From assembly GCA_018698135.1 (NCBI GenBank), contig JABINZ010000278.1, positions 1-45,145 on the forward strand: DNA of 45,145 nt. Direction: 5' to 3'. Each line of letters opens with the position of its first letter. The first letter of the stretch is position 1. This stretch comes from Bacteroidota bacterium. Its GTDB lineage: Bacteria > Bacteroidota > Bacteroidia > CAILMK01 > JAAYUY01. Below are positions 6,511 through 38,970 of the stretch, in pieces. The position numbers and the translations under genes were made by a program. The notes below the pieces were generated by a model. That model did not search any database and was not told where the DNA came from. It saw only the letters and a list, made by a program, of their open reading frames with translations.

Positions 6511-6742
6511 ATTAAGATGTAAAGATACTTATTTAGGTCAATTTTTGAATTCATTCCATGGTTTATTAATTCTGTTTAACAGCAATCCCATTATTTAGAA
6601 TGGAAAGCATGATGATTTATATCAATTTTAGCCTTTTCGTAAGCTTAAATATTGATTTATATACTTATAAGATATAGTTAATTTAAAGCTCAATTGAATG
6701 CTGTAAATTAGCACTTTTTTAGAAAGATTAAATTTGGAGTGT

Positions 6743-8230
6743 ATGAGTGATAAAGTGGTAAAATCTGAATTTGAGAAGTACTTTAAGAAATACCGAAAAA
6801 ACATCATTGGCTATGATAAGAAAATAGAAACGCCCTTTGGGATGAAAAAACTTATTTATGCTGACTGGACAGCCAGCGGCCGATTATATGCACCTATTGA
6901 AAAAAAAATGTGTGAAGATTTTGGGCCTTATGTTGCCAATACGCATACCGAAACAACGCATACAGGAACGTTAATGACTTTGGCCTACAATAAAGCCAAG
7001 GCTATCATCAAGGAGCATGTGCACGCTGGCCCTGATGAAGTTATTCTTACTTCCGGTTCTGGCATGACCCGCATAGTAAGTAAATTTCAACGTATGCTTG
7101 GACTTAAAATTCCAGATCAATTCATGAAATATACAAATATTCCTGATGACGAGCGTCCAGTTGTTTTTGTTACCCATATGGAGCATCATTCCAACCATAC
7201 ATCCTGGCAGGAAACGATTGCTGATGTGGAAGTTATTCCTCCTGATGATAAGGGCGATGTGTGTATGAAAAGCTTCAAGGAATTACTTGAAAAATACAAA
7301 AGGAGAAATAAGATTTATGCAGCTGTTACGGCTTGTTCAAATGTGACAGGAATTCAGCCTTGTGTTCGTGAAATTGCAAAATTAGTGCACGAATATGGAG
7401 GTTATTGTTTTGTCGATTATGCATGTTCTGCCCCCTATGTTGAAATTAAAATGAATACGGATGATCCGAAGGAAAAATTTGATGCAATATATTTTTCACC
7501 ACATAAATATTTAGGAGGTCCGGGTTCCGCAGGGGTTTTGGTTTTTAATCGTGCGCTATATTCAAGCCGTATTCCTGATACCCCAGGTGGGGGAACTGTT
7601 ACCTGGACAGATAGTTGGGGCGATCGCTTTTATTTTGATGATATTGAAATGCGTGAAGACGGAGGTACTCCTGCTTTTTTGCAAACTATCCGAACAGCAT
7701 TAGCTGTGCAATTGAAAGATGAGATGGGGGTAGAAAAAATGATGAAGCGTGAAGAAGAAATTCTGGAAAAAGTATTTGAAGATTTCGATCAAATAAATGG
7801 ACTTCATATTTTGGCTGCAGAACAAAAAAACCGTTTGGGAGTATTTTCGTTTTATATAGAAGATTTGCATTATAATTTGGGCGTAAAACTTCTAAACGAT
7901 CGCTATGGAATTCAAACTCGTGGAGGTTGTGCCTGTGCAGGAACATATGGGCACTATCTGTTCGAAATGTCTAAAGAATTATCAGATCAGATTCAATACC
8001 GAATATTACATGGTGATTTATCGGCAAAACCAGGCTGGATAAGAATGTCAATACATCCAACAATGACCAATAAAGAAGTAAACTACATTTGTTCAGCTAT
8101 TCGTGAAGTTGCAGAAAACCACAAAGAATGGAGCAATGACTATGAGCATGATATTTCAACCAATGAATTTTCCTTTATTGGGTATCATCGCAAAGAAGAT
8201 GAGATGGTTGAAGAGTGGTTCAGGAAGTAA
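6743..8230 (+). CDS. Class-V aminotransferase fold, PLP-dependent (cysteine desulfurase-like)
   Basis: About 495 residues. PLP-enzyme landmarks are visible: ADWTASGR near the N-terminus, HMEHHSNHTSW, VDYACSAPY (the Asp that contacts the pyridine nitrogen), and SPHKYLGGPGS with the Schiff-base Lys at residue 255 counted from ATG 6743. A C-terminal RGGCACAG segment (Cys396, Cys398) lies where desulfurases carry their catalytic Cys. At this length it belongs to a long subfamily of selenocysteine lyase/cysteine desulfurase-like enzymes, not classical SufS or IscS. The reading frame can extend to a TTG at 6734, but ATG 6743 follows a GGAG and is preferred. It converges on the sufBCD operon, so it could supply sulfur to SufBCD, but it is not co-transcribed with it. 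The fold is certain; the substrate is not. Confidence 0.85.
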   Translation: MSDKVVKSEFEKYFKKYRKNIIGYDKKIETPFGMKKLIYADWTASGRLYAPIEKKMCEDFGPYVANTHTETTHTGTLMTLAYNKAKAIIKEHVHAGPDEVILTSGSGMTRIVSKFQRMLGLKIPDQFMKYTNIPDDERPVVFVTHMEHHSNHTSWQETIADVEVIPPDDKGDVCMKSFKELLEKYKRRNKIYAAVTACSNVTGIQPCVREIAKLVHEYGGYCFVDYACSAPYVEIKMNTDDPKEKFDAIYFSPHKYLGGPGSAGVLVFNRALYSSRIPDTPGGGTVTWTDSWGDRFYFDDIEMREDGGTPAFLQTIRTALAVQLKDEMGVEKMMKREEEILEKVFEDFDQINGLHILAAEQKNRLGVFSFYIEDLHYNLGVKLLNDRYGIQTRGGCACAGTYGHYLFEMSKELSDQIQYRILHGDLSAKPGWIRMSIHPTMTNKEVNYICSAIREVAENHKEWSNDYEHDISTNEFSFIGYHRKEDEMVEEWFRK

Positions 8231-8362
8231 GAATAATAATAAAGTCTGTAGTCCTCAAACTGCAATGCCTGACAACATACTTCAGACAGAGAGTGAAGAC
8301 AGCAAAGATTGCATTTCAATAAACTAGATTTTCCCAATCAGCTTAATGGAAATGAAAGCGCT

Positions 8363-9754
8363 TTACTCTCTACAGTTCAACACGCAAGTGGCACAATGTG
8401 ATAATTCACCACGAAGTCGTTTTGCGACCAGGTAAGTTATTCGATCACGTAATGCCGGGATTTTTATCTTTTCAATAATCTCACCTACAAAGGCATTCAT
8501 CAAAAGCAAACGTGCTTCTTTTTCACCAATACCTCTTGATCGTAAGTAAAACAATTCATCAACACCAAGGTATCCCACGGTGGCACCATGTGAACATTTA
8601 ACATCATCAGCATAAATTTCGAGCTGAGGCATGGCATTCATTTTTGCATTATCGGTCAGTAATAAATTATTATTTTTTTGATATGAATTGGTGTTTTGTG
8701 CGTCTTTCCTCACCTTAATTTGTCCACGAAACACACCAGTTGCCTCATCATCTAAAATAGCCTTAAATAATTCATTGCTATTTGAATTTGGTTTGCGATG
8801 ATCAATAAATGTATTGTTATCAACATGTTGTGTGCGATCCGTTAAATGCGTTCCAAAAATATTGGCTTCGGCATATTCACCATCAATTATAATAGTTGTG
8901 TTATTTCTAACAAAACCACCATTTAAGGTAATGGTATTAACAGTTACATTCGAGCGGTCTTTTTGTTCAATATGAATAGTTGAAATTAATGCACCCAAAT
9001 TATTTTGATTTTGCAAACTATAAATTTCGAGGGTGGCACCTTCATCAACAAATATTTCAGTAACCGCATTGGTTAAGCTCTTGTTATTGCTTAAGGTATG
9101 ATCACATAATACGAGTTTTACATGTGCGTTTTTCTCAACTACTACAAGGTTTCGGGGTTGAATTAACTGCTGAAAAAAACTGTTTTCTTCTTGAGAAACC
9201 AAATTCACAATTTGAACTGGTTTTTCCATTTTTGTGTTTTCTGGAAACCAAGCAAAAATTCCATCGGAATTAAACGCAGTATTCAATGCTGTCAGCGCAT
9301 CTTTTTTGTGATTGGCAATTTTCCCAAAATATTGATCAATGATGTCGTTATACAAATCCTTTGCTTCTGCAAAACTACCGACCACACTTCCATTATCAAG
9401 TCGCTGAAACATGGGAAGCGTTTTAGGATACCAACCATTGATAAGGGCTAAGTCAAAGGTGTCAAGCTCACTTACATCACATCTGAAAATTTCTTTAATG
9501 GGTGTATTCACATCATCAGGAGGTAAAAACGGATGCATGAGTTTTCCACTATTTTCAAACCATTTTCGAACATCTGTGAACCTCCAGAGTTCGTCTTTTT
9601 TAGATGGCAATCCTAATTCATTAAGTGCTTCAATAGCCTCTTGCCTAATGTTTTTAAGGATATCGCTATCATTTTTTGTTAGCAACGCCAAATTTTGCTC
9701 CAAATCTGAAGTCAATGTATGTTCGATACTTGTATTTTCTAAAATATCACTCAT
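8363..9754 (-). CDS. sufD: Fe-S cluster assembly protein SufD
   Basis: 463 residues, the usual length for SufD. It has the beta-helix core of the SufB/SufD family and the C-terminal signature: VRKDAQNTNSYQ, LLLTDNAKMNAMPQLEI, VKCSHGATVGYL (Cys/His pair) and DELFYLRSRGI. SufD pairs with SufB and the SufC ATPase to form the cytosolic SufBC2D scaffold on which iron-sulfur clusters are built. It is the last gene of sufB-sufC-sufD, 20 nt after sufC. It ends in CVLNCRE, a small Cys-containing tail. No sufS or sufE follows it in the operon; the next gene (6743-8230) is convergent. Confidence 0.95.
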   Translation of the reverse strand: MSDILENTSIEHTLTSDLEQNLALLTKNDSDILKNIRQEAIEALNELGLPSKKDELWRFTDVRKWFENSGKLMHPFLPPDDVNTPIKEIFRCDVSELDTFDLALINGWYPKTLPMFQRLDNGSVVGSFAEAKDLYNDIIDQYFGKIANHKKDALTALNTAFNSDGIFAWFPENTKMEKPVQIVNLVSQEENSFFQQLIQPRNLVVVEKNAHVKLVLCDHTLSNNKSLTNAVTEIFVDEGATLEIYSLQNQNNLGALISTIHIEQKDRSNVTVNTITLNGGFVRNNTTIIIDGEYAEANIFGTHLTDRTQHVDNNTFIDHRKPNSNSNELFKAILDDEATGVFRGQIKVRKDAQNTNSYQKNNNLLLTDNAKMNAMPQLEIYADDVKCSHGATVGYLGVDELFYLRSRGIGEKEARLLLMNAFVGEIIEKIKIPALRDRITYLVAKRLRGELSHCATCVLNCRE

Positions 9755-9774
9755 TTTTCAAAACTTAATAGCAA

Positions 9775-10512
9775 TTACTTGATCCAATCATAACCTTTCT
9801 CTTCTAATTCTAATGCCAACTCTTTTCCACCTGATTTAACAATTTGACCATTGTAGAGGATGTGCACAAAATCAGGAACAATATAATCGAGTAAACGCTG
9901 GTAGTGCGTTATTACAACGAAAGCATTATGCTCATTTTTGAGTTCATTAACACCATTGGCTACTATTCGTAAAGCATCAATATCCAATCCTGAATCGGTT
10001 TCGTCTAAAATAGCCAGAGTGGGTTCAAGCATAGCCATCTGAAAAATCTCATTCTTCTTCTTTTCACCACCTGAGAAACCTTCGTTTACAGAACGATTGG
10101 TTAAGGATGATGCAATTTCCACAATCTTCTTTTTTTCATTCATGAGCTTCAAAAAATCTCCTCCTGATAAAGGATCTAGACCTTTATATGCTTTGTGTTC
10201 ATTGATGGCTGTTCGCATGAAGTTGGTAATGCTTACTCCGGGAATTTCAACAGGATACTGGAAAGCTAAAAAGATACCCTCTTTCGATCGGGTTTCAGGA
10301 TTCATCTCTAATAAATCTTTACCCTGATAATGAACAGAACCTTCGGTAACTTCAAATAATTCTCTTCCAGCAAGAACGGATGCTAAAGTGCTTTTCCCAG
10401 AACCATTTGGGCCCATAATAGCATGCACTTCACCAGGGTTAACTTTAAAATTAAGTCCTTTCAGAATCTCACTTCCATTTATACTTGCATGTAAATTTTT
10501 TATCTCTAACAT
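9775..10512 (-). CDS. sufC: Fe-S cluster assembly ATPase SufC
   Basis: 245 residues, an ABC-type ATPase. The Walker A motif is GPNGSGKS, the signature loop is FSGGEKKKNEI, Walker B is LAILDETDSGLDIDA, and the switch His lies in VVITHYQRLL. The altered signature (GGEKK) and the DETDSGLD Walker B are characteristic of SufC rather than of transporter ATPases. It powers rearrangement of the SufBC2D scaffold in the cytoplasm. It sits between sufB (27 nt upstream) and sufD (20 nt downstream), one transcription unit by spacing. Confidence 0.97.
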   Translation of the reverse strand: MLEIKNLHASINGSEILKGLNFKVNPGEVHAIMGPNGSGKSTLASVLAGRELFEVTEGSVHYQGKDLLEMNPETRSKEGIFLAFQYPVEIPGVSITNFMRTAINEHKAYKGLDPLSGGDFLKLMNEKKKIVEIASSLTNRSVNEGFSGGEKKKNEIFQMAMLEPTLAILDETDSGLDIDALRIVANGVNELKNEHNAFVVITHYQRLLDYIVPDFVHILYNGQIVKSGGKELALELEEKGYDWIK

Positions 10513-10539
10513 GATATATTGATATTTTGATGATGGTTT

Positions 10540-11982
10540 TTAACCCACACTATTTTCTAATGTAATTGCTAGTAATTTTTGAGCTTCAACTGCAAACTCC
10601 ATTGGAAGCTTATTTAAAACCTCCTTGGCATAACCATTAACAATAAGTCCTATGGCATTTTCAGTATCTATTCCTCGCTGATTGCAATAGAATAATTGAT
10701 CTTCGGCAATTTTTGAAGTTGTTGCCTCATGCTCAACAATTGCTGTTTTATTTTCAACTTCTATGTAAGGAAAAGTATGAGCGCCACATTTGTCACCCAT
10801 TAATAATGAGTCACATTGTGTAAAATTCCGTGCATTGGTGGCATTTTTCATAACTTTCACCAAACCACGATAACTGTTTTCACTAAAACCAGCTGAAATA
10901 CCTTTTGAAATGATTTTGCTCTTGGTATTTTTTCCAATATGTATCATTTTTGATCCGGTGTCTGCTTGCTGGTGATTATTGGTTACTGCAACCGAATAAA
11001 ACTCACCTGAACTGTTTTCACCTAACAATATTACACTTGGATATTTCCAGGTAATGGCAGAACCAGTTTCAACCTGTGTCCATGAAATCTTAGAATTTGC
11101 ACCACGGCATATACCTCGTTTGGTAACAAAATTGTAAATGCCCCCTTTTCCATTTTTATCGCCCGGATACCAGTTTTGAACGGTTGAGTATTTGACATCA
11201 GCATCCTTCATCGCAACAATTTCAACAATGGCTGCATGCAATTGATTTTCATCACGCATAGGTGCTGTGCATCCTTCGAGGTAGCTGACATAACTTCCCT
11301 CATCGGCAACAATTAAGGTCCTTTCAAACTGCCCTGTTTCTGCTGCATTAATCCTGAAATAGGTTGACAATTCCATCGGGCATCGCACACCCTTGGGAAT
11401 GTAAACAAACGAACCATCACTAAATACAGCGGAATTTAAAGCACCATAATAGTTGTCAGTAAAAGGTACTACAGAACCAAGATATTGTTTAACCAATTCA
11501 GGATGCTCTTTAATAGCTTCAGAAATCGGACAGAAAATTATTCCCAGCTCTCCAAGTTTTTCTTTAAAGGTTGTGATCACTGAACTGCTATCCATAACGA
11601 TATCAACAGCAACACCAGCTAAGCGTTTTTGCTCTTCAAGAGGGATACCTAATTTCTTAAAGGTATCCAGCAATTCAGGGTCAACTTCATCAATGCTATT
11701 CAGGTTCTTTTTCTTTGAAGTAGCATAATAACTGATGGATTGAAAATCAATAGGAGGATAATGCAAATGCGCCCATTTGGGTTCTTTCATTTCCTGCCAT
11801 TTCTTAAAAGCCTTGAGTCTGAATTCAAGCATAAATTCAGGTTCCTCATTCTTGGCAGAAATCATTCGAACAACATCTTCATTCAATCCTTTTGGAGCAA
11901 TTTCTTGTTCCACATCGGTTGTAAAACCATATTTATATTTTTCTTCAGTTACTGAAGTCAATAACTTTTCGCTTTCGTCCAT
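10540..11982 (-). CDS. sufB: Fe-S cluster assembly protein SufB
   Basis: 480 residues, full length for SufB. Family landmarks are [71 protein letters not shown], and the C-terminal [19 protein letters not shown] and [10 protein letters not shown]. SufB is the scaffold subunit on which the nascent cluster forms with SufC and SufD. First gene of sufBCD. The ATG at 11982 is preceded by TAATTTTG and, a little further upstream, a perfect short inverted repeat (11995-12010) that could be an operator. Confidence 0.97.
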
Positions 11983-11994
11983 TTTGCAAAATTA

Positions 11995-12010
11995 TTCAGG
12001 ATAGCCTGAA
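11995..12010. promoter_or_regulatory. Inverted repeat upstream of sufB, possible operator
   Basis: TTCAGG-ATAG-CCTGAA, a perfect 6+4+6 inverted repeat whose edge lies 12 nt upstream of the sufB ATG on the minus strand. suf operons are commonly controlled by iron, redox or Fe-S sensing regulators. The palindrome is seen directly; its role is inferred, and no regulator gene lies next to the operon. Confidence 0.35.
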
Positions 12011-23067: not shown

Positions 23068-23103
23068 CAAACAAAAAGCCCCTTGAATTAAATCAAGAGG
23101 CTT
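23068..23103 (-). terminator. Rho-independent terminator of the desulfurase/DsrC operon
   Basis: On the minus strand an 11-bp stem (AAGCCTCTTGA...TCAAGGGGCTT, one mismatch, loop of 6 nt, 23103-23076) runs into TTTTGTTTG. It lies 20 nt after the stop of the cysteine desulfurase gene and so would end the operon. Confidence 0.85.
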
Positions 23104-23123
23104 CCAAAATAGATAATTGTGTT

Positions 23124-24287
23124 TTAGGCCCTTATAGAAGCAATATCTGCTATAGCTTCAATAGCTAAATCAATATGTGCTTCCGTATTAAATGGTCCAA
23201 TACTTAAGCGTACAGTTCCATGCATGTTGATGGTGCCAATACCCTCATGTACTTTTGGTGCACATTGCAAACCTGTACGGCAGGCAATATCGTAGTCTAC
23301 ATCCAGCATGGTTCCAACATCGCCAGCTTCAAATCCACCAACATTTAAACTTAAAACTGGATTCTGGTTTTCAATGCTATCGGCACAATAGGTTGTTACA
23401 TTATCAATTGCCTGTACTCCTTTTCGTAGTTTATCCCAAAGAAGCATTTCTTGTTTATGGATATTTTCAATTCCTTGTTCTTGAATCCATTTAACACCTG
23501 CATTTAGCCCGGCAACTCCAACTAAATTAAGTGTTCCGCATTCTAAAACATATGGATATTCAGTAAGGTGTGTTTTAACTGCAGAGCGTACTCCTGTACC
23601 ACCAAAGCGGGTGCCTTTTACAGGAACACCTGGCATTACATAAGATCCACCAATGCCCGTTGGACCCATCAGGCATTTATGTCCTGTAAAAATATACACA
23701 TCAATACCCATAGCTTGCATATCGATTTCAACAGCACCAGCACTTTGGCTTCCGTCAACAACAAAAATTACACCTGCTTCTTTGCAGATTTTGCCAATTT
23801 CAGCAACTGGTTGAATGGTTCCGATTATATTTGAGCAATGGTTAACCACTACCATTTTGGTATTTTTCTTAATCGCTTTTTTGATGTCATCAGGATTCAC
23901 ATATCCATACTTATCAAACGGAATATAATCCACTTCTGCAGTTCCGTCCATCTCCAAATGATAAAGAGGTCGCAAAACAGAATTATGTTCCAAACAAGTA
24001 CTGATAATATGATCTCCTTTTTCGGCCAAACCTTGCAAAATCATGTTCAGTGTATCTGATGCATTGTAACTAAAAGTTAGTCTGTTTGGATCTCCATCTC
24101 CATGAAAAAGCTCAGTAAGCATTTTGCGTGTTCCGAAAACCACTTCTTCAGTTTCGATAGCAGCATCAAATCCTGACCGACCCGGACTTACTCCATGATT
24201 GCGATAAAAACTGTCCATAAACTGATAAACAGCTTCGGGTTTAGGAAAAGAAGTTGCTGAATTGTCTAAATAGATTAAATTACTCAT
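23124..24287 (-). CDS. Cysteine desulfurase family protein (class V aminotransferase)
   Basis: 387 residues. YLDNSATSFPKPE at the N-terminus, Asp178 in FVVDGSQSAG, the Schiff-base Lys204 in TGHKCLMGPTG, and Cys342 in CRTGLQCAPK as the likely persulfide Cys. RLSIGPFNTEAHID at the C-terminus is typical of the short NifS-like subgroup related to Enterococcus EF2568, not SufS or IscS. It should release sulfur from cysteine as an enzyme persulfide. Its ATG overlaps the stop of the upstream DsrK-like gene (ATGA), so the two are translationally coupled. I infer that it loads the operon's DsrC with sulfur, but selenium or another acceptor is possible. Confidence 0.88.
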   Translation of the reverse strand: MSNLIYLDNSATSFPKPEAVYQFMDSFYRNHGVSPGRSGFDAAIETEEVVFGTRKMLTELFHGDGDPNRLTFSYNASDTLNMILQGLAEKGDHIISTCLEHNSVLRPLYHLEMDGTAEVDYIPFDKYGYVNPDDIKKAIKKNTKMVVVNHCSNIIGTIQPVAEIGKICKEAGVIFVVDGSQSAGAVEIDMQAMGIDVYIFTGHKCLMGPTGIGGSYVMPGVPVKGTRFGGTGVRSAVKTHLTEYPYVLECGTLNLVGVAGLNAGVKWIQEQGIENIHKQEMLLWDKLRKGVQAIDNVTTYCADSIENQNPVLSLNVGGFEAGDVGTMLDVDYDIACRTGLQCAPKVHEGIGTINMHGTVRLSIGPFNTEAHIDLAIEAIADIASIRA

Positions 24288-25624
24288 GTGTTTTGATTAA
24301 TCTCCAAGGAGGCGTTTATTAATTCTTTTTTATCCAATACAATAGCATCGGCAACAATTTCAGCCATTGTCATTATTTTTACATTTAGTTTATAAAATGC
24401 ATTCAACTGTATAAGCTGGTCGACACAATTATGACAAGGAGTTATAACTACTTTAGCTCCAGTTGCTTTAATTTGATCTGCCTTAATCTTGCCAATTCCC
24501 AAACGTCTATCGTTATACTCACCCATGGATAGCTGTCCACCACCACCACCGCAGCAATAGTTGTCATAGCCATAAGGCTTCATTTCTACAAAATCAATGC
24601 AGGTAGCATTAACAATAAAACGTTGTTCTTCGAAAATACCACCATTTCGAACCAGATTACATGGATCGTGAATAGTTACCCGCTCGCTATTTAATTTAGG
24701 ATTAACAATAATTCTTTTTTCTCGGATATATTTTGCCATCAGCTCAACAGAAGAAAATATATCAAAATCATATTCTTTCTTGAGGTAGTTAGGTGCCTCC
24801 CATCTGTTGGCTCTATTTCCATGACCACATTCTGCTAGAATCAAATCTTTAGCATTGAGGTTTTTTACCTCATCATACATCCGTTGAGAAATGATTTCGG
24901 CTTCTGCATTATTGCATGAAAAGAATGCATAATTGGTAATATCATACATTTTTGTCGACAAAGTCCAACTTTCTTTAGCAGCATAAAATACTTTTGCCAT
25001 GGCAGATATCGACAATGGGAAAAATTTTGGTTCACGAGGGTTTAGGGTGTACAGTATATTCTTATCCTTTTCGTTCAAAGGAATTTTTGCCTCATCATCC
25101 TCAACTTCCATTTGCAGATCTTCTTCCAACCATTCAATGGTTTCAACCAATTCATCAGTTGGTATTCCCATGTTATTTCCTGTCGTAATCGCAGTATCAA
25201 CAGTTTTTTGTAAAGAAGCAGGGGTAAGTCCCATTTCTGTTAGCATTTCCCTCCCTTTACGAATTACATAGGCTATGTCAACACCAATGGAACAATGCGA
25301 AACACAACGTCCGCACATCGTACAACCTCCAAATAAAGAGTCGACCATCTCTAAAACCACCTTGTCATCAAGCTTTTTTGCATTGGATAAAAAGGGCGCG
25401 ATTTTACCCATATTGCTATTATAGCGTTGATAAATTGAATTTACCAACTCAACTTTTTTCGCAGGAATAAATTTTGGATCTCCAAAAGCCTGATAATAAA
25501 TGCAACTTTCAGCACACAACCCACAATGAACACAAGAGTTCAAATGAGTATAAAGCTTCCCATCTTCCTGTTTGGACAGTACCTCCAAGCCTTTGGTGAT
25601 TTGTTCTTTCGTTAGTTTTTCCAT
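24284..25624 (-). CDS. DsrK/HdrD-like iron-sulfur (CCG-domain) protein
   Basis: 446 residues from ATG 25624. This start overlaps the upstream stop (TAATG); a further in-frame ATG at 25651 would lie inside the preceding gene. Two [4Fe-4S] ferredoxin motifs: Cys31-34-37-41 (CVHCGLCAESC) and Cys101-104-107-111 (CTMCGRCVSHC). The C-terminal half has CCG-type motifs: AECGHGNRA (Cys266), HDPCNLVRNGG (Cys322), CCGGGGG (Cys357-358) and CHNC (Cys397, 400). These bind the noncubane-type cluster in heterodisulfide reductases, and AECGH plus CHNC particularly resemble DsrK. DsrK is the cytoplasmic catalytic subunit that reduces DsrC disulfide/trisulfide with electrons from DsrM. The flanking DsrC and DsrM-like genes support this assignment. 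Other members of the HdrD/GlcF superfamily are the alternative. Confidence 0.85.
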   Translation of the reverse strand: MEKLTKEQITKGLEVLSKQEDGKLYTHLNSCVHCGLCAESCIYYQAFGDPKFIPAKKVELVNSIYQRYNSNMGKIAPFLSNAKKLDDKVVLEMVDSLFGGCTMCGRCVSHCSIGVDIAYVIRKGREMLTEMGLTPASLQKTVDTAITTGNNMGIPTDELVETIEWLEEDLQMEVEDDEAKIPLNEKDKNILYTLNPREPKFFPLSISAMAKVFYAAKESWTLSTKMYDITNYAFFSCNNAEAEIISQRMYDEVKNLNAKDLILAECGHGNRANRWEAPNYLKKEYDFDIFSSVELMAKYIREKRIIVNPKLNSERVTIHDPCNLVRNGGIFEEQRFIVNATCIDFVEMKPYGYDNYCCGGGGGQLSMGEYNDRRLGIGKIKADQIKATGAKVVITPCHNCVDQLIQLNAFYKLNVKIMTMAEIVADAIVLDKKELINASLEINQNT

Positions 25625-26250
25625 TAGTTCGAAGCTTTTTTGGGTGGCCAAATATTTCTCCGTCCGTAAAAGAATCCGAGATGATAGCGTGCAGCAAAGA
25701 AAAATAAAGTGTGTTTTAGTTTACTGATAGGAATATAAAGTAAAAGTAAACCGGCCAACATGAAATACACATTATGCAAAGAGTTTGTGTAAATCATATA
25801 TGCAGTAATAATGTGAAAACTGCTGACCAAAAAGTTTGCAATATAATCATCTGCATTTGTGAAAGCTTTCAGGTTTTTGCTAAACATACGTTTGACAAGA
25901 ATTCCTAATCCACAAAGACATGTTATTACTAATAGAATTGGAATTATCATGCTAAAAACACCACGAATGTTTACCCCAAAAAGAACTAAAACAAAAAGGC
26001 CAAGACTCAGAAATGTTCCCATGTGATAAATCAAACCTGCAGTATACGTAGGTAAATGCAAAAACGCAGATTCTTTCTTTTTAGGACTCATTGCTCCTGT
26101 CAAAGAATATTTAATCCCATCAACCGGATTACCAGCAGGAGTTGAAAAGTCTTTTGGGTTTCCAAGTTTCAGGATTTTGGCAAAATGCAGGATTAAGCCC
26201 AAACTACATAAGATGAGTGCTGCAATTGCAAACCATTGATACCATTCCAT
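25624..26250 (-). CDS. DsrM/NarI-like membrane cytochrome b subunit
   Basis: 208 residues with about five hydrophobic segments (roughly 5-25, 70-92, 98-118, 138-158, 160-177). His residues in or next to helices (His65, His76, His146, His159, His180) include plausible heme b ligands. The C-terminal KLKHTLFFFAARYHLGFFYGRR matches the end of NarI/DsrM-type quinol-oxidising subunits. It would pass electrons between menaquinol and the DsrK-like partner, whose ATG overlaps its stop codon (TAATG). DsrC is encoded 23 nt upstream. The direction of electron flow cannot be read from the sequence. Confidence 0.82.
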   Translation of the reverse strand: MEWYQWFAIAALILCSLGLILHFAKILKLGNPKDFSTPAGNPVDGIKYSLTGAMSPKKKESAFLHLPTYTAGLIYHMGTFLSLGLFVLVLFGVNIRGVFSMIIPILLVITCLCGLGILVKRMFSKNLKAFTNADDYIANFLVSSFHIITAYMIYTNSLHNVYFMLAGLLLLYIPISKLKHTLFFFAARYHLGFFYGRRNIWPPKKASN

Positions 26251-26273
26251 ACAATTGGATTAAGTTAGATGAA

Positions 26274-26591
26274 TTAAACGCAACCGTCTGGTTTAGGCAA
26301 ACCTGCAACACGACATGCCCCACGCGCAGGGCCTAATGGAAATAATTCATAGATTTCCTTTAAACGAATACCTGTTTCTTTGCAAATAACCCTTACCATT
26401 GGAGCCATCCCTTTTTCTTCCCAGTTTGATCGGATGATTTTAACAATAGCCCAATGCTTATCACTCATCTCTTCAATACCATCGTATTTAGCTATTAAAC
26501 GACCTACTTCATCATTCCATGAATGCGGATCAGTTAAAAATCCATCACCATCTACATCAAACGTTCTTCCTTCAATTTCTAAACTTGCCAT
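26274..26591 (-). CDS. dsrC: DsrC/TusE family sulfur carrier with both redox cysteines
   Basis: 105 residues, typical DsrC length. The N-terminus is LEIEGRTFDVDGDGFLTDP and the C-terminal arm CRVAGLPKPDGC-V has Cys93 and penultimate Cys104, eleven residues apart. TusE-type tRNA-modification proteins need only the penultimate Cys; DsrC of sulfur energy metabolism has both and can carry an intramolecular trisulfide. This copy therefore looks redox-active. In known systems DsrC receives sulfur from DsrAB or TusBCD, neither of which is in the window, and is reduced by DsrMK. It lies between the small five-Cys gene (14 nt) and the DsrM-like gene (23 nt), in the same operon. A third Cys (Cys70) is present. 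Confidence 0.93.
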   Translation of the reverse strand: MASLEIEGRTFDVDGDGFLTDPHSWNDEVGRLIAKYDGIEEMSDKHWAIVKIIRSNWEEKGMAPMVRVICKETGIRLKEIYELFPLGPARGACRVAGLPKPDGCV

Positions 26592-26605
26592 AGAGTTTAT
26601 TATAA

Positions 26606-26851
26606 TTAGTTTTCTAATTCTTCATATTTATCAATGATTTCATCCGTACTTAAAACTGTGTCAGGCATGACAAAATCGGGACAAAAATTAATTGTGCTTT
26701 TAGTTATGTATCGTTTGCAATTTTCCCAGGAATTGTCTGTCTTTTTACAATAAGATTCAAGATAATTGGCAAACGTATTATTGTTAGCAACAAAGCCTTT
26801 AGTGTGGACTAGTTTACATGAACTGTAATTCGGACAATAGTATTCTTGCAT
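26606..26851 (-). CDS. Small five-cysteine protein of unknown function
   Basis: 81 residues, no signal or membrane segment. Cys6, 12, 35, 45 and 57 occur as YYCPNYSSCKLV, SYCKKTDNSWENCKRYI and NFCPDFVMPDT; the C-terminus is acidic. The pattern suggests a metal- or Fe-S-binding or thiol-redox protein, but I do not recognise a named family. It is the first gene of the dsrC operon (14 nt before dsrC), which argues for a role with DsrC. Its ATG lies inside a perfect 19-nt inverted repeat. Confidence 0.75.
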   Translation of the reverse strand: MQEYYCPNYSSCKLVHTKGFVANNNTFANYLESYCKKTDNSWENCKRYITKSTINFCPDFVMPDTVLSTDEIIDKYEELEN

Positions 26852-26866
26852 AAGATATTCTTATGC
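26848..26866. promoter_or_regulatory. Perfect inverted repeat over the first start codon of the dsrC operon
   Basis: GCATAAGATATTCTTATGC, 8+3+8, includes the ATG (26851-26849) of the five-Cys gene. It could be an operator for a dimeric repressor, or an mRNA hairpin that hides the start codon. The minus-strand sequence just upstream has TATAATATTG, a weak -7-like box. Confidence 0.5.
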
Positions 26867-27001
26867 GCGCAATATTATAAAAAAAATATAAATAATAGAT
26901 TTTTTGTGAATTGTTTAACAGCAGCAAGAAATTCAGAGTTTGGTCAATTGTTCATCTCAAGCTTCTATATAGGTAATTCCATGATTTTGGAATTTCTTCA
27001 A

Positions 27002-28138
27002 TTAGCAATTGCAATTAGCGGTTCTTCTCGGACAATGAGGAAGTAAGTTAATATCGTTAATTGAGTAATCTTTTTCCAAACAAGCTTCGGGATCACAACA
27101 TGTATGACAAACTCGCTTATGGGCTTTGTAACTAATTAAGTCAACATCTGGTGAGAGAAAATCCTGCTTGATAGGTTCAGTTTTTAATAAGTCGGTGCTT
27201 AAATATTTTTTATTATCATCAGGAAAAACGGTCACAACAACTGAATCTTTGCCGAGTTTTTCCTGAATTATTAATGCGCCTAACAAATTTGCACCCGATG
27301 AAATTCCAACACCAATTCCCAATTGATTTGCTAATTTCTGAGCCATGATAATGGCATCACCATCATCAACACTAATTACTTCATCCAACTTGTTTAACTC
27401 AAGAATTGAAGGAATGAACTCATCTGAAATACCTTGGATTCTATGTTTTCCAACCTTATGGCCTGTGGTAAGGGTTGGTGAGTTGCTGGGTTCTAATGGA
27501 TAAATTTTAATAGCGTTGTTTTGTTCTTTAAGATACTTTCCTGTACCCATAATAGTTCCACCTGTGCCAACACCAGCAATAAAAGCATCTGGGGTTAAAC
27601 TTTGGAAACGTAATTGCCACCATATTTCAGGTCCTGTAGTATTGTAATGAGCCATACAATTATCCTCGTTTGAGAATTGATTTGGCAGAAAGGCATGTGT
27701 TTGTGTCTTGGCGAGTTCTTCCGACATGCGAATGCTTCCCTGAAATCCTCCTTGCTCTTTACTCACTAAATGTATTTCAGCGCCTAAACTTTTTATCAGA
27801 TTAATTCGTTCAGGACTCATCCAATCAGGCATAAAAATAGTAACCTGATGCCCCAATGCTTTTCCTAATGCAGAAAATGAAATGCCGGTATTTCCGCTGG
27901 TGGCTTCAATAATATGACTTTCAGGAACAATTTCTTTGCGTTCAAATGCATTTTGAAGAATGGAAAATGCCATACGATCTTTAATACTCCCTGTCATATT
28001 CAAGTTTTCTGCTTTGGCATAAATATGCCTAACAGTTCCTTTATATTTAAACTTAATATCCAATAAGGGCGTATTACCCAATAAGCAGGCAAGTCCTTTT
28101 AACCGATTTTCATAATCATTCATATTGTCTATGGGCAT
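27002..28138 (-). CDS. Cysteine-synthase-like PLP enzyme with Cys-rich C-terminal tail
   Basis: 378 residues. Residues ~15-310 are a fold-type II beta-family enzyme: GNTPLL, the PLP Lys in [36 protein letters not shown] and GVGISSGAN. These fit O-acetylserine sulfhydrylase/cystathionine beta-synthase relatives. A tail of ~35 residues holds Cys344, 347, 348, 353, 369, 376 and 378 (CHTCC-x4-C ... [10 protein letters not shown]), which ordinary CysK lacks and which suggests a metal, cluster or thiol site. It would combine sulfide with an activated serine to make cysteine. Same strand as the dsrC operon, 150 nt upstream, so linked but perhaps on a separate transcript. The start at 28138 gives MPIDNMND; Met6 is an alternative. 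Confidence 0.85.
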
Positions 28139-38363: not shown

Positions 38364-38406
38364 CATCAAATACAAACTATTCTAAGTTATTTTTCTATTT
38401 TTGAAT

Positions 38407-38970
38407 ATGACTATTAAAACTTCTCAGGACTCGGATGATTCTTTGTTCTTCTGCACTTTCACTTGTTTCAATTGGATACCTCTGTTTGAGATAACGAATT
38501 TCTACAGTGAGATTTATAAGTGGTTTGATATACTGGTAGAAAGAGAATGTAAAATCATTGCATATGTTATCATGCCAAATCACTGTCATTTTATAGTATT
38601 TGTGCCTTCTAAAGAGAATATTAGCAAATTAGTCGCAAATGGAAAGCGTTTTATGGCTTATGAGATAGTTAAACGATTACAGAATATTGGGAAATTGAAA
38701 TTGCTAAAAGATCTGGAAGAATCTGTTGATCCGAATGAAAAGAAAATAGGTAAACGGCATAATGTGTTTCAACCTTCATTTGATGCAAAACCTATATTTT
38801 CAGAAAAGTTTCTATTTCAGAAATTAGATTATATACATCATAATCCTGTTTCAGGGAAATGGAATTTAGTTGAGGTCTGTACGGAATATGAACATTCTTC
38901 AGCAAAGTATTATGAATTTGGTGAGTTTGGAATATATCCTGTAACGCATTATGAAGATGTATTTGGCTAA
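38407..38970 (+). CDS. REP-associated tyrosine transposase (RAYT, Y1_Tnp family)
   Basis: 187 residues from ATG 38407; a TTG at 38401 is also in frame. IAYVIMPNHCHFIVFVP carries the HUH metal motif (HxH). YIHHNPVSGKWNLVE and YEHSSAKYY near the C-terminus are typical of the Y1/RAYT family. These are single-stranded DNA nicking/joining enzymes that usually occur once per locus and act on REP palindromes. Inverted REP copies lie 43 nt upstream of the ATG and 5 nt after the stop, and more relatives are scattered in this window. I did not assign the catalytic Tyr with certainty. Confidence 0.9.
   Translation: MTIKTSQDSDDSLFFCTFTCFNWIPLFEITNFYSEIYKWFDILVERECKIIAYVIMPNHCHFIVFVPSKENISKLVANGKRFMAYEIVKRLQNIGKLKLLKDLEESVDPNEKKIGKRHNVFQPSFDAKPIFSEKFLFQKLDYIHHNPVSGKWNLVEVCTEYEHSSAKYYEFGEFGIYPVTHYEDVFG

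Follow-up and report, generated by a model that had tools for sequence, protein, structure and literature searches.

What might a DsrC protein do beside a cysteine desulfurase and a membrane redox pair, in a bacterium without a sulfite reductase? The question is raised by contig JABINZ010000278.1 of a Bacteroidota bacterium (assembly GCA_018698135.1), which was analyzed over its whole length of 45,145 nucleotides (hereafter the window). At 26851-23124 on the minus strand lies a core unit of five genes, encoding in this order a small protein with five cysteines, DsrC, a NarI-type cytochrome b, an iron-sulfur protein of the CCG (heterodisulfide-reductase) type and a cysteine desulfurase (Table 1). 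The unit is conserved, and neither a sulfite reductase domain nor TusB was found in the 51 genomes with the module that were searched. We regard it as an evenly balanced proposition that these genes form a self-contained module for quinone-linked desulfuration of cysteine.

Table 1. Features of the core unit and its surroundings in the window
Feature	Position	Strand	Evidence and remarks
Small protein	26606..26851	-	81 aa, predicted helical; five invariant Cys (C6, C12, C35, C45, C57)
DsrC	26274..26591	-	PF04358 116.6 bits, TIGR03342 99.7 bits, over curated cut-off
NarI-type cytochrome b, HmcE/TmcC-like membrane subunit	25624..26250	-	208 aa; HmcE/TmcC profiles, E 8e-8
CCG protein, TmcB/HmcF/DsrK-like, predicted cytoplasmic	24284..25624	-	2x[4Fe-4S] + CCG (heterodisulfide-reductase-type); probable ATG at 25624, listed start TTG 25651
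Cysteine desulfurase, class V, pyridoxal phosphate (PLP)-dependent, TIGR01977 subfamily	23124..24287	-	412 bits vs cut-off 377; active-site Cys342
Cysteine (hydroxyl)lyase-like PLP enzyme, Fn1055 type (optional neighbor)	27002..28138	-	60% identity over 330 aa to PDB 5b53
Terminator-like hairpin	23074..23105	-	18 bp 3' of desulfurase; 13-pair stem, T-rich tail

Conservation of the core unit

The positions of the core genes, and of a sixth minus-strand gene for a PALP-type enzyme about 150 bp upstream, were verified against the open reading frames (ORFs) of the window. The initial annotation had described five close-packed minus-strand genes, and this description was borne out. The small protein and DsrC genes are 14 bp apart and the DsrC and cytochrome b genes 23 bp; the cytochrome b and CCG genes overlap by 1 bp (TAATG), when the conserved ATG is used instead of the listed TTG at 25651, and the CCG and desulfurase genes by 4 bp. 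Judging from this spacing, the core genes are probably co-transcribed.

When the collection was scanned with the CCG protein, 182 relatives were found; the best 80 of these were retained and, together with L070, a locus of the same family, make 81 loci. By name, nearly all kept relatives are metagenome-assembled genomes (MAGs) of Bacteroidota or Ignavibacteria, one is titled just 'bacterium', and one (OttesenSCG-928-B11, locus L167) is an isolate-type genome that encodes the desulfurase as well as the CCG protein; as these are the best 80 of 182, the module may also occur outside the Bacteroidota. The initial annotation had proposed a survey of the gene order in Bacteroidota. In 65 of the 81 loci the genes for DsrC, cytochrome b, CCG protein and desulfurase follow one another in this order on one strand within 5.5 kb, with median gaps of 12, 3 and 27.5 bp. 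Around this unit the flanking genes are unrelated between genomes, so the order is kept more than chance would explain. The module is rare: in a sample of 395 genomes from the class, 2 had it. Relatives of the small protein are recognizable in 34 of the 81 loci, each immediately 5' of dsrC; it matched no Pfam family, and its AlphaFold2 model, although confident (pLDDT 86), had no Foldseek match.

The desulfurase goes with the CCG protein even where the genes are scattered. The CCG gene stands alone in five loci; DsrC is encoded elsewhere in four of these five genomes and the desulfurase in all five, at 69-73% identity. All seven genomes examined that have the CCG protein, five of them with scattered genes, encode a desulfurase of at least 69% identity, whereas the homologs in ten genomes of this order that lack the CCG protein reach at most 35%. 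The subfamily thus tracks the CCG protein (7/7 with, 0/10 without). Its active-site loop, GL[QH]CA, is present in 67 of 69 sequences. Two further desulfurase homologs are encoded in the window's own genome. At 6734-12000 of the window, SufB, SufC and SufD neighbor a class V PLP enzyme of 498 aa; in several loci, L139, L151, L162, and L163 among them, similar long enzymes of this class adjoin the module DsrC. The gene that precedes the lone CCG gene in L138 and L161 resembles, read by eye, a MalY/PatB C-S lyase.

The cysteines of DsrC and the identity of the membrane pair

The closest PDB chains for the window DsrC are DsrC/DsvC. Its penultimate residue is CysA (C104) and CysB (C93) lies 11 residues earlier; both are kept in all 75 aligned module DsrCs, which share the C-terminus ARGAC[RK][VI]AGLPKPDGCV. 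Of the features that mark a dissimilatory-type DsrC, CysB is present and DsrAB in the same genome is not (PF01077 in 0/51). The second cysteine has been found only alongside DsrAB, with few exceptions, and is almost always replaced without it (PMC3397948, 2012). In a comparison of 41 DsrCs, comprising those of the window and the phylum-survey loci and leaving out the Chlorobi-like group, CysB occurs in only four (the window, L070, L050, and L052); in the remaining 37 the position is occupied by A, S, T or L. The four with CysB are also the only ones whose locus contains a DsrK-like gene, the L052 locus being a true dsr operon that includes DsrA. An extra cysteine, Cys70, is conserved in the module DsrCs and in L050 and L052, and not in other aligned Bacteroidota DsrCs.

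The pairing of a DsrC/TusE family member with a desulfurase resembles the IscS-TusA-TusBCD-TusE relay of E. coli, of which TusE is the final sulfur carrier (PMC3397948). By this analogy the desulfurase and DsrC could provide sulfur for tRNA or cofactors, with the membrane pair resetting over-oxidized DsrC. We consider such a biosynthetic role quite unlikely. In contrast to the Tus relay, the module has a dedicated membrane reductase and keeps CysB, and TusB is lacking in all 51 genomes; the module is also restricted to 2 of 395 class genomes whereas thiolation is universal, and Suf genes elsewhere in the window and the two other desulfurase homologs are at hand.

The CCG protein was placed by ranking hidden Markov model profiles, with Chlorobi-like and dsrAB-linked proteins as controls. 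It scores 288 bits on TmcB, 279 on HmcF and 231 on DsrK, under all equivalog cut-offs (735, 750 and, for DsrK NF045796, 400 bits), whereas the Chlorobi-like DsrK controls score 715 and 705 bits and DsrK ranks first (304 bits) for the CCG protein of the dsrAB-linked L052. Two CxxCxxCxxxC motifs and C331-X34-C366C367-X38-C406xxC409 are kept in at least 95% of 82 sequences. Among the cytochrome b members, the HmcE profile matches 39 of 39 and TmcC 19 of 39; none of the 39 matches the DsrM equivalog NF038037 at E 0.001, on which a control scores 464 bits. His76 and His180 are invariant and His65 is kept in 72 of 75. A sequence search of the PDB with the cytochrome b gave no match, and its model matches the NarI fold with Z 9.2-10.1, which is moderate for a helical bundle, unrelated rows beginning at 8.2. 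On modeled fold and conserved histidines it qualifies as a NarI-type cytochrome, with putative haem b and quinone binding.

The initial annotation had named the pair DsrMK-like. Profile scores do put the CCG protein within the DsrK/TmcB/HmcF group, but the pair appears closer to TmcBC/HmcEF than to DsrMK and should be called TmcBC/HmcEF-like. The Tmc and Hmc profiles of sulfate reducers are the nearest to both subunits; unlike those complexes, the operon contains no cytochrome c subunit (TmcA/HmcA) or other subunits, the curated cut-offs are missed widely and the host has no sulfite reductase. With DsrMK(JOP) the module may share the logic of a membrane quinone-DsrC oxidoreductase, both DsrC cysteines being kept, and a DsrMK-like working of the pair is plausible. 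It differs in the lower DsrK score, in a cytochrome b that is far shorter than the control DsrM (about 330 aa) and has no DsrM match, and in the lack of DsrAB. DsrJ, DsrO and DsrP are not in the operon, a genome-wide search for them not having been made.

The pair might also serve ferredoxin, electron-transfer flavoprotein or a small thiol, DsrC and the desulfurase then being regulatory or detoxifying only. M. smegmatis EtfD (9ojn) resembles the CCG protein in sequence (E 6.5e-14) and the cytochrome b model in fold (Z 9.0), and the five lone CCG genes would fit such a partner. We nevertheless judge it improbable, given the synteny with a CysA/CysB-bearing DsrC in nearly all remaining loci and the DsrC elsewhere in four of the five lone-CCG genomes. 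For the Tmc/Hmc complexes themselves the cytoplasmic partner has been described as unknown, and DsrC was suggested for that role (PMC4215793).

Genome context and the direction of electron flow

The sulfite reductase domain NIR_SIR (PF01077) was found in 0/51 module genomes, the window's own genome included, and in 11 of 14 control genomes; TusB (PF04077) was likewise found in 0/51, own genome included, and in 3 of 14 controls. The initial annotation had reported neither dsrAB nor tusBCD and had held that a complete set elsewhere in the genome would speak against its model; the genome searches came back empty. Sulfate or sulfite reduction is ruled out by the lack of a NIR_SIR domain in the 51 genomes.

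Only 15 of the 51 module genomes encode a type III sulfide:quinone oxidoreductase (SQR), which two genomes without the module (G400 and G404) also have. The module is therefore independent of SQR, and a need for an SQR-DsrC'-DsrE2 cluster was rejected on this distribution. Sets of SQR, DUF1641, DsrC and DsrE2 occur independently of the module; one genome carries such a second set (L089, G000:C66:3283-5539), with a type III SQR, a DUF1641-like protein, a DsrC with CysA only and a DsrE2-like protein.

We infer the following mechanism. The desulfurase would turn cysteine into alanine, keeping the sulfur as an enzyme persulfide, which would pass to CysA of DsrC. Attack by CysB would free H2S and leave a DsrC disulfide (or a trisulfide could form), and electrons from menaquinol (MKH2) would flow through the cytochrome b and the CCG protein to re-reduce DsrC to the dithiol. 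The net reaction, cysteine + MKH2 -> alanine + H2S + MK, would serve an anaerobe as an electron sink, and a proton-motive redox loop is conceivable if, as in NarI, quinol oxidation takes place at the outer face. We put forward, tentatively, that this amounts to cysteine respiration, with DsrC-borne sulfane sulfur from cysteine as terminal acceptor for menaquinol in anaerobic Bacteroidota that lack sulfite reductase.

We favor this reading because the operon is kept in 65 of 81 loci amid shuffled flanks, because CysA and CysB are present in 75 of 75 DsrCs and CysB co-occurs with a DsrK-like gene, because the desulfurase tracks the CCG protein, and because NIR_SIR and TusB are lacking from the 51 module genomes. 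The module's independence from SQR and the presence of MenD in the window's own genome point the same way, as do the suggestion of DsrC as the Tmc/Hmc partner and the resemblance of the adjoining window gene to a second cysteine-desulfurizing enzyme. By analogy, E. coli IscS with cysteine, or sulfide, persulfidates A. vinosum DsrC in vitro, the sulfur sitting on the penultimate cysteine (PMC3397948).

The same components could run in the oxidative direction, the membrane pair oxidizing DsrC thiols and sulfide to a persulfide or trisulfide and reducing menaquinone, with DsrC-bound sulfur feeding other enzymes. Such a role has been proposed for DsrMKJ of sulfur oxidizers, with trisulfide formation and quinone reduction in cable bacteria (PMC13293266), and five loci (L139, L146, L149, L157, and L162) carry DsrE2- and TusA-like genes adjoining the module. 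In L162 (9172-15851) DsrE2 and TusA, then FlpD and two HdrA-like genes directly follow the module, and a type III SQR-DUF1641-DsrC'-DsrE2 set lies upstream. Nevertheless, SQR is confined to 15 of 51 module genomes, there is no DsrAB to consume a trisulfide and the desulfurase already provides sulfane-level sulfur, and we hold the oxidative direction to be unlikely.

Several observations weigh against the reductive, cysteine-respiring reading. Five genomes have the CCG gene apart from dsrC and the desulfurase gene, and in four loci (L092, L097, L099, and L102) no desulfurase gene lies next to the unit, although the contig runs on. Of the 51 module genomes, only 34 gave a menaquinone marker (MenD or MqnA/D), and neither turned up in several small rumen or digester MAGs; in these the quinone may be scavenged, its route unrecognized, the genome incomplete, or the partner other than menaquinol.

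The neighboring enzyme and significance of the module

The initial annotation had taken the upstream PALP enzyme for a cysteine synthase that belongs to the module and recaptures sulfide. Both parts call for correction. It falls below the cysK equivalog TIGR01139 (302 vs 350.95 bits), and the nearest structure is Fn1055 of F. nucleatum, an enzyme reported to form serine and H2S from cysteine and water (PMC9865163). As in Fn1055, the Asp of GISDEFIP is kept (Asn in the 5b55 variant). With its close identity to Fn1055, the enzyme more likely releases sulfide from cysteine, and recapture is disfavored. Only in two loci, the window and L163 (there downstream of the desulfurase), does an Fn1055-like gene lie next to the module, and it is thus outside the conserved core. 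Unlike the aligned Fn1055 structure sequence, both enzymes (window 27002-28138; L163:10558-11715) carry a Cys-rich C-terminal tail, RVCxTCC...C. What stands of the model first proposed for this locus is a unit of DsrC, desulfurase and membrane reductase without DsrAB or TusBCD; the DsrMK identity and the recapture of sulfide have been corrected.

The hairpin behind the desulfurase gene is one of two terminator-like sites in the region, against 3.1 expected from shuffles, a count not above chance. Rfam and tRNA scans of the window gave no matches. An ORF at 38401-38970 looked, by eye, like a REP-associated tyrosine transposase.

A search of open-licence papers gave no description of a system with this composition, and among the papers it returned on cysteine as electron acceptor none, by title or abstract, describes the module; with that scope, this is weak evidence of novelty. 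Our data suggest an undescribed route that couples cysteine sulfur to the respiratory chain in uncultured anaerobic Bacteroidota. The module is a large, operon-linked exception to the rule that CysB accompanies DsrAB (PMC3397948), and gives CysB a function open to test, while DsrC becomes a concrete candidate partner for a TmcBC/HmcEF-type complex. The reading predicts that Bacteroidota of the rumen, termite gut, digesters and sediment would form H2S from cysteine in a quinone-coupled manner, an activity that sulfite reductase markers would miss.
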